A DNA stretch of 41,923 nucleotides from a virus. Position 1 is the first letter of the stretch, and each line of letters begins with the position of its first letter. The stretch lies in the IMG/VR virus record IMGVR_UViG_3300046755_000360, positions 1-41,923 of that record. The stretch is one strand, 5' to 3'. The notes below the pieces were generated by a model that ran no database searches, was not told where the DNA came from, and saw only the letters and a list, made by a program, of their open reading frames with translations. Positions 15,058-20,365 of the stretch are shown here, piece after piece. The translations under genes and the position numbers were made by a program.

Positions 15058-15669
15058 ATGGATCAGATCAAAACCACCGATGCGGCAACTGAAAGCGCCG
15101 CGCCGCAAGAAACCAACCGAGCGCGGGTGCGTCGCCTGTTCATCGATCCGCTGGTCAAGGATGGCATGCGCTTCCGCCGACAGACCTCGGCTGAGGATCA
15201 GCGGCGCAAGCTTGACCAGATGGCCGATGATCTCGGGTATCTCTCGGATGAATCGCTGCGCATCCTCGCCGCCTGCATGCGGACGAAGGGAGAAGGGTCG
15301 AGCAAGGTCTTTTGGCCCAGCCGGATCAGCATCCTCGGATTTGCCGAGGCGCGTGAGCGCATGCCGTTGCAGGACGTGCCTGGCCTGCGCTCGTGGTTTG
15401 TGTCTGCCGCTGGTCACGAGGCGGCAGCTGTGCCGGGCCGGTTGATCTCCGAGTACGTTTTTTGGAAGAACCACAAGCGCCCTCCGCGTGGGGATCGGGA
15501 GTGGTCGATCGTCACGAGCCGCGCGGAGGACTACGCGCGCCGGGTTGAGCTGATCGAAGACCGTCTGCATCGCGGCGTGACCGTCACCGAGGAGGAAAAT
15601 CGCTGGTTGCGGCGATACCACGAAACTGAAGAAATGCTGCGCGGCTGGCTGACCGGAGAGGGTGCGTGA
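15058..15669 (+). CDS. Putative replication accessory protein
   Basis: 203 residues (start 15058; 15049 also possible, both behind AAAAGGGGG). Charged and mainly helical: RARVRRLFIDPLVKDGMRFRR, a conserved-looking LGYLSDESLRILAACMRTKGEG block, then an arginine-rich C-terminus. It follows the initiator gene in the position of a helicase loader (lambda P-like) and probably assists replication, but I do not recognise the family. The stop overlaps the next start (TGATG). Confidence 0.6.
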   Translation: MDQIKTTDAATESAAPQETNRARVRRLFIDPLVKDGMRFRRQTSAEDQRRKLDQMADDLGYLSDESLRILAACMRTKGEGSSKVFWPSRISILGFAEARERMPLQDVPGLRSWFVSAAGHEAAAVPGRLISEYVFWKNHKRPPRGDREWSIVTSRAEDYARRVELIEDRLHRGVTVTEEENRWLRRYHETEEMLRGWLTGEGA

Positions 15670-16571
15670 TGAAAATGGCGAAACTTCACACCCCCGAAAT
15701 TCAATGGTTCGCGTGCCGGGTGAAGCGCAAGCAGCTCGGCGGCATTCGATCAGTCACCGTCGGCGGAGACTTCGAAGCATACCGCGATCGGTCAGGCCGG
15801 ATGCGCAAGCGCCGCATCGACGGGACCGGAAGCCGGGTGTTCCTGCCGGAGCACCTTCTACGCCGCGCTGGCTTCGAGGTCTTCCTGCCCGTGAAAAAAG
15901 TGTTGCGCCGGAAAAACCGCTTCACGCCTGAGAAAGCCCATGTGACCCAGCCGCTCTTGGCGGATTGGCTGTTCGTTGGATGGCGGGCAGATATCGATAG
16001 GTGGCATGAACTGATGGATTTGGAAGTGATCTCAGGCGTCATGGGGACTGGCGGGCGGCCGGCAGCCATTCCTTCGGACAGAGTTGCCCGGCTGATGCGG
16101 CAGTGGGGCGGAGGCCGTTTATCCCGTGAGTGCAAAAAAATGGCTGAACAACCACAGATGTACAATCCGGGCGAGGTCGTGAAGGTCCCTGATGGACCTT
16201 TTGTCGACTTCGATTTCAAAATTGTGGATGTGACTGCAAGGGCTGCCCGAGGGGTTATTAACATCTTCGGGCGCGAAACCCCTCTTGAGGTCCCGATCGA
16301 AAAACTTCCAGAGCGCGTCGCTGAGGAGGACCCGGCTATGCCCGCTGATTTGAACCTTAGCGACCCATTCGATCCCGCGCTTTCAACGTGCATCTGCGGC
16401 CATCGGGCAGCGCAGGTATTGCCTGACGATTCGGGGTATTGCGTGACATGCGGCAACTGCGGTGGCCGCGCTGCGCGATGGTCTCAAGATGAGGTCACCG
16501 CGAAAAAGCGCTGGAATGCCTGGGCGGAGAGCATGACGTTAAGTTTCCCCCACAACGTTAAGAGGGCTTGA
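15669..16571 (+). CDS. NusG-like antiterminator with C-terminal zinc ribbon
   Basis: 300-residue paralog of NusG/RfaH. The NGN-type domain spans about residues 11-150 (IQWFACRVKRKQLGG, LRRAGFEVFLPVKKVLR, LLADWLFVGW), and a KOW domain about 167-212 (PGEVVKVPDGPFVDFDFKIVDV...RGVINIFGRETPLEVPIEKL). It carries an extra C-terminal zinc-ribbon resembling Lar-family proteins, with cysteines at 241, 243, 258, 261 and 264 and the ending EVTAKKRWNAWAE. It would bind RNA polymerase and favour elongation; its location immediately before two terminators and the structural genes fits a late-gene antiterminator. The start at 15669 has GAGAGGG six bases upstream. The first cysteine pair is C-x-C instead of the usual C-x-x-C. 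Confidence 0.85.
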   Translation: MKMAKLHTPEIQWFACRVKRKQLGGIRSVTVGGDFEAYRDRSGRMRKRRIDGTGSRVFLPEHLLRRAGFEVFLPVKKVLRRKNRFTPEKAHVTQPLLADWLFVGWRADIDRWHELMDLEVISGVMGTGGRPAAIPSDRVARLMRQWGGGRLSRECKKMAEQPQMYNPGEVVKVPDGPFVDFDFKIVDVTARAARGVINIFGRETPLEVPIEKLPERVAEEDPAMPADLNLSDPFDPALSTCICGHRAAQVLPDDSGYCVTCGNCGGRAARWSQDEVTAKKRWNAWAESMTLSFPHNVKRA

Positions 16572-16764
16572 CTGCGGGGGTGCATGTCTCTTAACAGTTG
16601 GGCATAGACGAAGGTTTGTTGGCCACTGTTGAAAGATACATGCCAGCGCTCCGGGCGGTCGAAGTCGCATGTGTTGCACCCGATTTCGACTGTATGCCGT
16701 CAAGTCCGGGCTACCACGCGAAAGCGCCGCCGCCTGTGACACTGCTGCTGCAATGGAAAGAATG
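16557..16764 (+). other. Gene-free structured region before late genes
   Basis: No gene is visible between 16572 and 16947. The stretch holds three inverted repeats: GTTAAGAG/CTCTTAAC (16557-16564 with 16588-16595); AACAGT/ACTGTT (16593-16598 with 16625-16630); and a 10-bp arm pair at 16658-16667 and 16681-16690 with a single G-U. GGCGGTCG at 16654-16661 differs in one base from the start of the RfaH ops element. It may encode a leader RNA that loads the NusG-like protein; this is inference. Confidence 0.5.
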
Positions 16765-16792
16765 GCCCGGCTGAAAAGCTCGGGCTTTTTTT
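16765..16792 (+). terminator. Intrinsic terminator 1 before late genes
   Basis: GCCCG at 16765-16769 pairs with CGGGC at 16781-16785; the inner GCT/AGC extends the stem around a GAAA loop, with one bulged T. Seven T residues follow (16786-16792). Confidence 0.85.
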
Positions 16793-16880
16793 ATGCCTGA
16801 AGGGTACTTGCACCGATGCTTGGTGGGTATTGAGATGGAGGTTGCCATGTAAATGAAATCCAATTCCTCCCTGTTGAACT

Positions 16881-16918
16881 AAGGCCGGTCACCGCTTGGA
16901 GGTGCCGGCCTTTTTTTT
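16881..16918 (+). terminator. Intrinsic terminator 2 before late genes
   Basis: AAGGCCGG (16881-16888) pairs with CCGGCCTT (16905-16912), with CACC/GGTG continuing the stem around a single bulged T. Eight T residues lie at 16911-16918. Strong rho-independent terminator 30 bp before the first late gene. Just upstream, GGAGG-TTGCC-ATG is followed at once by TAA, a start-stop frame. Confidence 0.88.
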
Positions 16919-16947
16919 GTGAGCGGCGCTCAGATGGAGGAATGCCA

Positions 16948-17520
16948 ATGTTCAGCGTGGGCGAAATTGATGTGAAGGGTTTGCAGCAATTCGAGAACAT
17001 GCTGGGGGCCTTGGGGGCGGAAGCACCGAAAGCCGTGAACCGGGCTATCAACCGCACTGGCGATATGGCCCGCACACAGGTGGTCAGGACGCTGGCGCGG
17101 CAAACCGGCCTGCCACAGAAGACGATACGCAAGTCGGTGAAGATCAAGCGGTCATCCTGGGCCAGCTTGGAGTACCAGCTCAAGTCGGCGGGCGGTGACG
17201 TTTCGCTGAAGTACTTCAAGAAGCGCGAGACCGATGACGGGGTCCGGGCTTACCTGGGCGATGCGAGGGGCTGGGATTGGTTTGCTGAATCCTTCTTCCG
17301 CGGTGGCCGGTGGCCGCGCCCACGAAAGGCGATCGTTTGGAGCCATGGGCACGTGTTCGTTCGCGTTGGCGGGCGCACCGAATTGGAAAAGGTCAAGTCC
17401 GGCATGTTCATCCCCGAAGAGATGGTGGATGGCGCAACGGCTGAGGCGTTCGAGAAATCGGTTGAGAAGAACCTCCCGCGCCGACTGGACCATGAGATCA
17501 GCCGCCTTCTGGGCCTGTAG
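16948..17520 (+). CDS. Minor tail protein Z-like (tail completion)
   Basis: 190-residue protein matching the prophage minor tail protein Z / Gp10-like group: EIDVKGLQQFENMLGALGAEAPKAVNRAINRTGDMARTQVVRTLARQTGLPQKTIRKSV, then a beta-rich middle and a GMFIPEEMV...FEKSVEKNLPRRLDHEISRLL ending. Such proteins act in head-tail joining or tail completion. Unusually, it lies before the terminase genes instead of after the capsid. GGAGG seven bases before ATG 16948 sets the start over 16942. The 194 bp that follow hold only a 25-codon frame and a 10-bp ATAAGCTTAT palindrome. Confidence 0.75.
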   Translation: MFSVGEIDVKGLQQFENMLGALGAEAPKAVNRAINRTGDMARTQVVRTLARQTGLPQKTIRKSVKIKRSSWASLEYQLKSAGGDVSLKYFKKRETDDGVRAYLGDARGWDWFAESFFRGGRWPRPRKAIVWSHGHVFVRVGGRTELEKVKSGMFIPEEMVDGATAEAFEKSVEKNLPRRLDHEISRLLGL

Positions 17521-17714
17521 CGCGGGCATATGAGTATAAGCTTATGACCCTGAAAAAAAGGGACCGTACAGCATCTGGCGCGCACGCGGGGCGGAAGCTG
17601 CCCGAGGGTTCGGCAGTCTGACCGTTTTTTCAAAGCCTTAACATAAGGGGATATGCTTAACGCTGGCTGCTCGGCTTACCAAATTGAGCGGTTAGAAACT
17701 GAATGGGGCGATCA

Positions 17715-18389
17715 ATGGAAACCGCACAAGAGGCAGTATCGCAGGCGCAGCTGGCGAGGCATTTTGGCGTCAGCCGAGCGGCCGTAAGCCAGTGGAAGTC
17801 AAAGGACATCCTTCAGGAGGATGCGTTCACCGAGCCGGGTAAAACGGGAAAGGTCTATCTCCACAAAGCCATGGAGCAGGTCCGCCGGAACCGCGACATC
17901 GGCCAATCTCTTGGCAACGGGATCGCGACCCGCACAACCGGCACCCCGGCCTTGCAGCGGCAATCACAGGAAGCGGCCGAGGAGGAGGCGGCGGAGTTGC
18001 CGTTGGAGGCGGACTTATCTGAGCAGATCGCTTCGAACAAACCTGTTTCCGTGGAGGATCAGCTCAAGCGGGCCAAGCTGGAGCAGCAGCTGCGGACAAA
18101 CCGCATGCAGGCCTCGGAGGAGGCGCTTCGGCAAGGCAAATTGATGGCGGCAGAGGATGCGCGTGAGCAGATGGGGCGCATCGCCGGGATGATGCTGCAG
18201 ATCTTCGAGGGGGCGCTTCCAGACTTCGCGGCCGCGACAGCAGCGCGGTTCGATCTACCCCAAAGGGATGTGCTTCACCTGCTCAGGGCGGAGTTCAAGA
18301 AGGTTCGCAAGACGGCGGCGATGAAGGAGCGGGCCCGCGCGGAGGTCGCTCAGAAGGACGTGCAAACCTCGGTTGATATGGAGGCGTAA
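17715..18389 (+). CDS. Terminase small subunit (Nu1-like)
   Basis: 224-residue DNA-recognition subunit of the packaging motor. The N-terminal winged HTH (SQAQLARHFGVSRAAVSQWKSKDIL) matches lambda Nu1; a central acidic linker and a helical oligomerisation region (EDQLKRAKLEQQLRTNRMQASEEALRQG) follow. GGGG six bases before ATG 17715 favours it over 17703. The stop overlaps the large subunit start by one base (TAATG). A cos-type cleavage site would be expected nearby but was not identified. Confidence 0.88.
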   Translation: METAQEAVSQAQLARHFGVSRAAVSQWKSKDILQEDAFTEPGKTGKVYLHKAMEQVRRNRDIGQSLGNGIATRTTGTPALQRQSQEAAEEEAAELPLEADLSEQIASNKPVSVEDQLKRAKLEQQLRTNRMQASEEALRQGKLMAAEDAREQMGRIAGMMLQIFEGALPDFAAATAARFDLPQRDVLHLLRAEFKKVRKTAAMKERARAEVAQKDVQTSVDMEA

Positions 18390-20365
18390 TGCTGGATGTT
18401 GCGGTCACAAGTGCCGAATGGATGGCGCACGATGTATTGGCAGACGTGATCGACCCTCCGCCCCCCGTGGATTATCTGACCTGGGCGGAGGAGAATATCG
18501 TTTTCTCCTCACGGGAAAGCCCCCTACCCGGCCCGTACAACCGCGAGCGATTCAGCTACTTCGATGAAGTTCTGACCGCACTGTCTCCGGACGATCCCTG
18601 CCGGATTGTAACCCTTTCAAAGTCGGCGCAGCTCGGCGGCACGGTGCTGGCCAACATTTTTACCGGCGGCTCCATGGACATGGACCCCAGTGATTTCTTG
18701 TATGTCCACCCGACCGACGAAAACGCACGACGGTGGTCGAAGATGAAGTTGGCGCCAATGCTGAAAGGCACCACGGCGCTGCGAAAGATTTTCCCGATGA
18801 AGGCCCGCGATGGGCTGGATTCGGTTTTCTACAAAGAGCGCCGCGACGGTCGTGGTGCGATTCAGATTTCAGGTGCGAACTCGCCCGCCTCCCTTTCGCA
18901 GGTATCGATGTCCCGTCAGGTGCAAGATGACCTTGCTAAGTGGGACATGAACAGCGCTGGCGATCCGGAGACCCAAGCGGACAGCCGCAGCCAGGGGTAT
19001 GAGTTCGCGAAGATATTCAAGATTTCGACACCCATGGTCGTTCCGGGGTGCCGGATCACCAAAAACTTTGAGGCAGGAAGTCAGGAGCTCCTGCATGTGC
19101 CCTGCCCCCATGATGAGTGCGGGCACATGCAGGTTTTGGAGTGGGAGAACATGCTCGCGAGCTTGGATGAAGATCATCCAGAGCGCGCGCACTTTACCTG
19201 CGAAAGCTGCGGCTCAGCGATCGAGGAGCACCATCGACCGAAGATGCTGCGTGGCGCGAAATGGGTCGCGGGAAACCCGAAGATGAAAAGGGTCCACCGA
19301 TCGTTCTACATTTGGTCAGCCTATTCGCTGCTTCAATCCTTCGAGCGCATTGCGCGCTCGTGGCTTTCGGCGAAGGGCGACCCGCCAAAGGAGCAGACCT
19401 TTTGGAATGACGTTGTGGGAAAAGCCTATCGCGTCCTCGGGGAGGCTCCCCCGTGGGAGGATATTCGAGACCGCGCCGCAGAGTCTGATTATGCCCACGG
19501 CAACATTCCGGCCGGGTATCCGATACTAACCTGCGGCGTAGATTGCCAAGGGGACCGGGTGGAATGGCAGGTTGTCGCATGGGGTCAGAACAAGCGCCGC
19601 GCAGTCATCGAGTACGGCGTGTTTAATGGGCACGTCTCGGAGGATCAGTGCCAGTCAAAGCTCAACGATTTGCTGCGGCAAGGCTTTCGGAACGCCTACG
19701 GGCGCAAGATTGAAATCGATATGCTTGCGATCGACGGCAACGCCTACACCGAGGATGTGTGGGACTGGGCGCGCAAGCATCCAGCGTCACGGGTCATCAT
19801 GGTGCGAGGTGTCCACCCTGAAAGCGCACCGTTGCTGGCTCAGGTGAAGAAGGAGCGAAATCGGCGCGGGAAAATCGTCCGCTACTCGAAGCGCTTTTAC
19901 AACTTCGCTTCCTCGGTTTTGAAGATGGGCCTCTACCGGAACCTGAAGAAGGATGATCCGGAGGAGCGCGGTTTTATCGCTGTGCCGAAAGGCCTGGAGG
20001 ATGAATTTTATCGCCAGCTTACGGCGGAAACTCGCAAGGCGCAGAAAGCGAAATCGGGATTCACCCGGTATCTCTGGGTGAAAGACCCGAACCAGGCAAA
20101 CGAAGGGTTGGATACTCACCTCCAGGCTGAGGCTGCCTGGGTTAGGTTGGCTGGCCCGCAGCGCGATCTGCCCGAAACTGAGTGGGACCGCTTCATGGCC
20201 GATCGAGAGCGCCCCCCGGAAGATATCCAAGGGGATTTTGAAGATCTTCTAATGGCGGCGCAGCCGCAGGCCGAACCGGCGGAATCAGAGAATACAACCG
20301 AAGACGAAACTGAAGCGCGGGCCAAAGAGCGCGCGCGGTCGAAGTGGAGAAACAGAACGCGATGA
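18389..20365 (+). CDS. Terminase large subunit (GpA-like)
   Basis: 658-residue packaging ATPase/nuclease of the lambda GpA family. Walker-A-like SKSAQLGGT at residues 77-85, acidic QDDLAKWD at 179-186 in the Walker B region, and a zinc-finger insertion C239/C244 with C271/C274, typical of GpA. The C-terminal nuclease begins around CGVDCQGDRVEWQVVAWG with a catalytic aspartate. The acidic tail (ENTTEDETEARAKERARSKWRNRTR) may contact the portal. Length is usual for the family. Confidence 0.95.
   Translation: MLDVAVTSAEWMAHDVLADVIDPPPPVDYLTWAEENIVFSSRESPLPGPYNRERFSYFDEVLTALSPDDPCRIVTLSKSAQLGGTVLANIFTGGSMDMDPSDFLYVHPTDENARRWSKMKLAPMLKGTTALRKIFPMKARDGLDSVFYKERRDGRGAIQISGANSPASLSQVSMSRQVQDDLAKWDMNSAGDPETQADSRSQGYEFAKIFKISTPMVVPGCRITKNFEAGSQELLHVPCPHDECGHMQVLEWENMLASLDEDHPERAHFTCESCGSAIEEHHRPKMLRGAKWVAGNPKMKRVHRSFYIWSAYSLLQSFERIARSWLSAKGDPPKEQTFWNDVVGKAYRVLGEAPPWEDIRDRAAESDYAHGNIPAGYPILTCGVDCQGDRVEWQVVAWGQNKRRAVIEYGVFNGHVSEDQCQSKLNDLLRQGFRNAYGRKIEIDMLAIDGNAYTEDVWDWARKHPASRVIMVRGVHPESAPLLAQVKKERNRRGKIVRYSKRFYNFASSVLKMGLYRNLKKDDPEERGFIAVPKGLEDEFYRQLTAETRKAQKAKSGFTRYLWVKDPNQANEGLDTHLQAEAAWVRLAGPQRDLPETEWDRFMADRERPPEDIQGDFEDLLMAAQPQAEPAESENTTEDETEARAKERARSKWRNRTR

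Follow-up and report, generated by a model that had tools for sequence, protein, structure and literature searches.

NusG is a transcription factor conserved in all life, yet to our knowledge an address signal has been established for only a few of its specialised paralogs. RfaH is recruited by the ops DNA signal, and the late regulator Q by qut. At lambda pR', Q acts on a late promoter of its own, followed by a leader of ~200 nt that ends at a terminator and then by the late operon, the signal being DNA. The HK022 put element is an RNA acting on polymerase by itself, and in eukaryotic elongation complexes Elf1/ELOF1 acts with Spt5. LoaP is reported to bind a leader RNA hairpin through both of its domains and to suppress a leader terminator by opposing NusA (PMC12691694), and rfaH-like genes of prophages are mentioned in another paper (PMC7593976). 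In the literature covered, mostly journals open without subscription, no description came to light of a phage NusG paralog that works with a late-gene leader RNA, and no paper on a Lar–NusG fusion was found.

Here, we analyse a window of 41,923 nucleotides (virus record IMGVR_UViG_3300046755_000360) in which an earlier note had drawn attention to a single gene. The larger finding lies outside the coordinates of that gene, in a non-coding structure directly 3' of it that the note did not mention. With a probability of roughly 70%, all evidence being comparative, we propose that the gene encodes an RNA-guided, LoaP-like late-gene antiterminator of a temperate phage, working like lambda Q.

A NusG paralog in the place of lambda Q

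The gene order of the window starts with an integrase, a CII-like activator, an O-like replication protein and a methyltransferase, followed by the paralog gene and, 3' of it, by Neck1, terminases, portal, protease, tape measure and endolysin (Table 1). The paralog gene stands between the replication and the late genes, which is the place of lambda Q, and the record is that of a virus of Rhodobacterales-type bacteria, probably a temperate phage. In 27 of the 31 paralog loci, the gene is followed on its own strand by a terminase; of the other four, the stretches of L001, L013 and L016 stop too soon, and in L065 no terminase is seen. L060 and L062 duplicate the prophages of L020 and L006. The terminases of L006, L023 and L025 match one another and not that of the window at the limit used, and the paralog also precedes terminases without a match to each other at this limit.

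With regard to the gene itself, the likelier start is ATG 15669, the other candidate being GTG 15666; it is overlapped by the stop codon of the upstream ORF, and the stop is TGA 16569-16571. Among PHROG families, the top match is 6386, annotated 'transcription antiterminator', with E 5.8e-16. The earlier description of the product as a NusG/RfaH paralog with NGN and KOW domains was borne out by a Pfam match for the NGN domain (NusG PF02357, residues 61-142, E 5.9e-8, 33.5 bits vs a cut-off of 22.2) and by fold matches for both domains. In structure comparisons of the AlphaFold2 model (mean pLDDT 74.7 for the whole protein), RfaH was the closest NGN fold (residues 10-147 against 8pen_P, rmsd 2.2, 101/101 residues), and the KOW domain matched the C-terminal domain of E. 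coli NusG (2jvv, Z 7.6, rmsd 2.0, 54 aligned residues, 35% identity). In the single model made, looked at for the fold-switching helical KOW of RfaH, the domain is predicted as strands forming a barrel; an NGN followed by a KOW barrel is the arrangement of the NusG/Spt5 superfamily. Since the protein scores far under the NCBIfam cut-offs for housekeeping NusG (TIGR00922, 41.5 vs 135.7 bits), RfaH (TIGR01955, 35.1 vs 144.5 bits) and LoaP (NF033641, 21.7 vs 125 bits), it belongs to a separate branch. Each of three related host genomes has a separate nusG over the cut-off. The basic insertion of ~35-40 residues that follows the first NGN strand is among the best conserved parts of the family, is absent from three host NusG proteins in the alignment and may contact nucleic acid.

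The paralog occurs in 9 of 390 Rhodobacterales genomes; at E 1e-20, none was found in 384 genomes of other Alphaproteobacteria, G001 not counted. One prophage with the gene is that of Rubricella aquisinus DSM 103377. Distant matches were found in 7 phage records only, at up to 28.1% identity. In L054 (1510-2392), the NGN part of the paralog continues in frame into sequence resembling a late gene, as would be left by a deletion of KOW, RNA and terminators.

Table 1. Features of the paralog gene and of the region 3' of it, in window coordinates.
Feature	Position	Strand	Details and basis
NusG/RfaH paralog with C-terminal zinc ribbon	15669..16571	+	300 aa from ATG; ORF calls, profiles, AlphaFold2 model
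NGN domain (expected RNA polymerase binder)	15696..16109	+	residues 10-147; Z 11.0 to RfaH NGN 8pen_P
Basic insertion in NGN	15723..15839	+	about residues 19-57; alignments; conserved in phage family
KOW domain	16155..16316	+	residues 163-216; NusG-like signature IFGRETPLE; fold, alignment
Zinc ribbon	16359..16535	+	residues 231-289; C-x-C-G-H ... C-x-x-C-G-N-C-G; five invariant Cys; predicted beta-beta-beta-alpha
Candidate operator	16538..16595	+	GTTAAG direct repeat at 16538 and 16557 (19 bp apart), inverted CTTAAC at 16590
Candidate late promoter	16568..16596	+	-35 TTGACT 16568-16573, 17-nt spacer, -10 TTAACA 16591-16596; consensus reading
Class A structured leader RNA	16604..16756	+	~150 nt; covariation
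Intrinsic terminator T1 (stem + U-run)	16764..16793	+	-15.4 kcal/mol, shuffles -8.0
Mini-ORF between T1 and T2	16837..16852	+	GGAGG, then ATG-TAA (start-stop)
Intrinsic terminator T2	16881..16920	+	centroid -22.2 kcal/mol, shuffles -12.2
First late gene, tail completion/Neck1 protein	16942..17520	+	PHROG 27, E 2.7e-29
Terminase small and large subunits (start of packaging/head genes)	17703..20365	+	PHROG 57, E 1.1e-13; PHROG 15, E 4.6e-165

The leader RNA and its distribution

The region between the paralog gene and the first late gene holds a candidate promoter, a structured RNA and two terminators. The promoter and both terminators were read by eye and the terminators then confirmed by folding; none of the three is listed by the sigma-70/terminator scanner. 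The -35 box overlaps the stop codon of the paralog gene, and TTGAC is present in 22/22 listed loci of RNA classes A and B. Upstream of it, GTTAAG occurs in two copies at 14 of these loci, in one copy at six and in none at two (L006 and L014). In the window, four of the five GTTAAG copies belong to 19-bp pairs; the second pair (17637-17661), with its copies inverted, lies just before the small terminase gene.

The RNA of the window scores 179.4 bits with the class A model R1, among whose own sequences it was, and Rfam (4227 families) gave no match at gathering score in the window and eight related loci. Among 15 class A sequences, changes on both sides are seen in 23 of 54 pairs, vs 7.2 in shuffles; none of 500 shuffles reaches 23 pairs, and slid registers give 1-10. 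The T1 stem is helix 8 of this covariation structure. Class B, with six distinct sequences, has 7 of 42 such pairs vs 2.0 expected. A third class, D, has its own conserved core and is based on three sequences (L025:8228-8362, L051:1300-1438, L052:1295-1430), the shuffle controls covering classes A and B. The 3' motif CTGCAATG is common to the class A RNA and the class D RNAs of L025 and L052. The locus has the leader of the LoaP type, namely structured RNA and intrinsic terminator, and also the Q-type layout, with a position between replication and late genes, a promoter (by sequence), leader, terminator and late operon.

An SD-ATG-(0-4 codons)-stop arrangement between T1 and T2 is found at 15 of 22 loci under a loose pattern, encoding mostly MKRI outside the window; searched on both strands, the window as a whole contains 12 matches to the loose pattern and two to the strict form. 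Close to this position, L022 and L049 each have the start of a real small gene.

An RNA of known class lies between the paralog gene and the late operon in 27 of 31 distinct loci (15 of class A, eight of class B, one weakly of class B, L022, at 15.1 bits, and three of class D), and no such RNA was found in L023, L024, L053 and L054. L041 and L034/L076 were found through the RNA, and leaving both out gives 25 of 29 loci. In L019, L020 and L021, the RNA is 0.6-2.5 kb from the paralog gene and still adjoins the late operon, which marks the junction between gene and RNA as a tolerated insertion site; the extra DNA spans L019:8753-10620, L020:8676-11137 and L021:8868-9455.

Among the 390 Rhodobacterales genomes, class A RNA was detected in four and class B in one, and all five are among the nine that bear the paralog; these searches used strict filters and scored at most seven candidates per genome, and may have missed weak copies. 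In viral contigs, the class A DNA pattern picked out ten, all with the paralog (10/10): nine are known paralog loci, and in the tenth the paralog stop lies ~90 bases before the RNA core. The class B pattern matched eight contigs, seven of them with the paralog. The match in L039, where the stretch was read without finding the paralog, was set aside as a chance one.

Co-inheritance of KOW and RNA class

In the class tests, which leave out L022 and the class D loci, the nearest neighbour shares the RNA class for 18/19 KOW and 12/19 NGN domains (dereplicated proteins, 19/22 kept after near-duplicates were dropped), compared with 6/18 for the first late (neck) gene and 5/17 for the small terminase. 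On trees keeping all 22 loci (20 for neck), the fewest RNA-class changes are one for KOW, three for NGN and seven for neck, vs label-shuffle means of 6.8, 6.8 and 6.0; shuffles as low as observed number 0/300, 1/300 and 300/300, respectively. The neighbour and tree counts therefore tie RNA class to KOW and not to the gene on the other side of the RNA. In L034/L076, checked apart, the best KOW neighbours are of class A, and so are the two best NGN neighbours. The rule is not one to one: L006 breaks it, and L009 and L011 carry class A RNAs that are 92-95% identical with KOW codons of different types (about 50-60%). Linkage may explain part of the co-inheritance because KOW codons and RNA are neighbours, but linkage alone is hard to reconcile with the neck gene, which lies equally near and does not track RNA class.

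Pairs of closely related phages point in the same direction. Compared in 60-base steps, L012 (class B) and L011 (class A), whose NGN domains are 97% identical, show 83-100% identity between -1500 and +540 of the gene; the figure then falls to 48-79% over KOW codons, promoter and RNA, is back at 95% for the following 120 bases and is mixed across the late genes. L014 displays the same drop from +541 compared with L015 and L016, and is back at 93-100% from +901. In L010 and L017, identity is 85-97% in the 660 bases that precede the gene and 90-98% over the first late genes, with different paralog genes and RNA classes between these similar flanks; this is a second exchange, here of the entire gene together with its RNA. 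Between viruses, the RNA is swapped along with the part of the protein that probably reads it.

This pairing bears on the strongest rival explanation, which we consider unlikely, namely that the late antiterminator is recruited by a DNA signal, as are RfaH and Q, and that the folded RNA is a stand-alone small RNA ending at T1, or one acting on polymerase as put does. The RNA does have its own candidate promoter and terminator, the closest NGN fold is that of RfaH, and the conserved GTTAAG repeats and promoter could hold such a signal. However, the -35 box and GTTAAG are common to classes A and B, yet KOW changes with RNA class, and a DNA signal at the promoter would not need a differing KOW, which counts against it.

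For the RNA-guided antiterminator that we favour, the computed domain make-up, RNA structure, terminators, gene order and KOW/RNA-class co-inheritance suggest the following sequence of events. Host RNA polymerase would initiate from the promoter located at the gene's 3' end and go on to transcribe the structured leader RNA; without the paralog protein, it would stop at T1 or T2. The last early gene would supply the NusG paralog, whose NGN would dock on the elongating polymerase, while its C-terminal module would read the folded leader RNA, so that only transcripts from the late promoter would be loaded. In most relatives, the reading module would be a diverged KOW alone; in the window, a KOW resembling that of host NusG would be joined by the zinc ribbon. 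The modified polymerase would then pass T1 and T2 and transcribe the late operon. Promoter use, protein–RNA binding and suppressed termination are the steps that we infer here. The many natural protein–RNA pairs, and the swaps between near-identical phages, make the RNA specificity of the KOW module directly testable.

A wider proposal, on which we would lay even odds, is that of a new phage late switch in which a NusG/Spt5 paralog takes the place of Q and is guided to its target by large structured leader RNAs. Its C-terminal module (either a diverged KOW or a host-like KOW with an Elf1-like ribbon) would be matched to a cognate RNA, and phages would exchange the two together by recombination, the RNA classes numbering at least three (A, B and D). 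A late antiterminator of the kind favoured here would also explain how late genes could be controlled in some temperate phages of Alphaproteobacteria that have no recognised Q.

The zinc ribbon and comparison with known systems

The earlier note had also described a five-cysteine ribbon with an RWNAWAE ending, and both are found as described, with cysteines 241, 243, 258, 261 and 264 followed by this motif. It had suggested looking for the same domain order in other phages, and the NusG–ribbon fusion turned up in 5 of 26 phage proteins compared (the window, L008, L009, L010 and L021), across which all five Cys, CGH and W-N-x-W are invariant. The C-x-C spacing that it had called unusual is kept in all five fusions and is therefore no sequencing accident. 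A stand-alone ribbon from an internal start (in-frame ATG at about 16339, after GAGGAGG) was considered and rejected, the methionine being absent in L008, L010 and L021. Between the window and L008, dN/dS is 0.51 for the ribbon (five synonymous and nine non-synonymous changes), vs 0.075 for NGN and 0.135 for KOW, indicating that the ribbon is less constrained, with few changes behind the estimate.

Modelled by itself (pLDDT 75), the ribbon is predicted to have a beta-beta-beta-alpha fold, and its best fold neighbours, at modest Z, are transcription zinc ribbons. The top four second-look entries are all Elf1/ELOF1 (Z 5.3, 5.3, 5.0 and 4.3, vs 3.1 for the next), and 56/59 residues superpose on 8b3d_M with Z 5.3 and rmsd 3.0. 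Foldseek with the ribbon alone returned nothing under 0.001, a comparison of the ribbon with solved structures gave nothing under E 0.67, and a sequence match to Elf1 was obtained for one of the five ribbons (E 0.037). The predicted likeness to Elf1, seen with the second-look aligner alone at Z near 5, is modest, and other families may fit.

The ribbon could alternatively be an anti-restriction domain of Lar type carried along with the NusG paralog, giving the protein two separate jobs. Its Lar-like sequence, pointed out earlier, stands, in that Pfam Lar (PF14354) is the best match for 5/5 ribbons (best E 6.1e-5, window E 5.8e-4); membership of the family does not, the window scoring 20.5 bits (ribbon) and 16.4 bits (whole protein) vs the cut-off of 28.6, with C-x-C in the place of the C-x-x-C of Lar in the first Cys pair. 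Furthermore, the ribbon was found only fused to NusG: phage records held no stand-alone match at E up to 1, and the four viral contigs matched by a ribbon profile were all known fusions. It is present with one KOW type only, and its best fold neighbours belong to transcription. We regard two separate jobs as quite improbable, and the second, anti-restriction activity raised earlier is not supported; the place of the gene points to one job, control of late-gene transcription, and the ribbon would provide an extra contact with RNA or polymerase, not with a restriction enzyme.

The signature IFGRETPLE is typical of the ribbon-bearing proteins, its general form IFGRxTPLx is host-like, and their identity to three host NusG KOW domains is 31-46%, compared with 13-38% for ribbonless proteins. 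In our reading there are two solutions, in which KOW either is diverged and stands alone or is conservative and comes with a ribbon. This host-like KOW would also suit a competitor of Rho/NusG or a general polarity suppressor of phage transcripts without a link to the leader RNA, the least probable of the rivals, which leaves the position, the terminators and the KOW–RNA pairing unexplained.

Among known systems, LoaP of Bacillus velezensis is likewise a specialised NusG paralog, and the long operon that it serves also has a leader in which a structured RNA precedes an intrinsic terminator. Unlike LoaP, the present gene is a phage gene in the Q position, with a larger multi-helix RNA, several exchangeable RNA classes, an NGN insertion and a fused ribbon. 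Lambda Q shares the place between replication and late genes and the promoter–leader–terminator–late operon topology, but the window protein is built from NusG and its signal appears to be RNA, not DNA. RfaH shares the NGN fold (Z 11.0) and is likewise an operon-specific paralog; the differences are a KOW modelled as a barrel in the one model made and the score under the RfaH cut-off. Lar shares the ribbon sequence and the W-N-x-W end, and the ribbon departs from it in its score under the cut-off, C-x-C, fusion and transcription context. Elf1/ELOF1 superposes on the whole predicted ribbon, at a weak score and with hardly any sequence support; if this likeness is true, proteins with the ribbon would be the counterpart, in a bacterial virus and within one chain, of the Spt5–Elf1 partnership.
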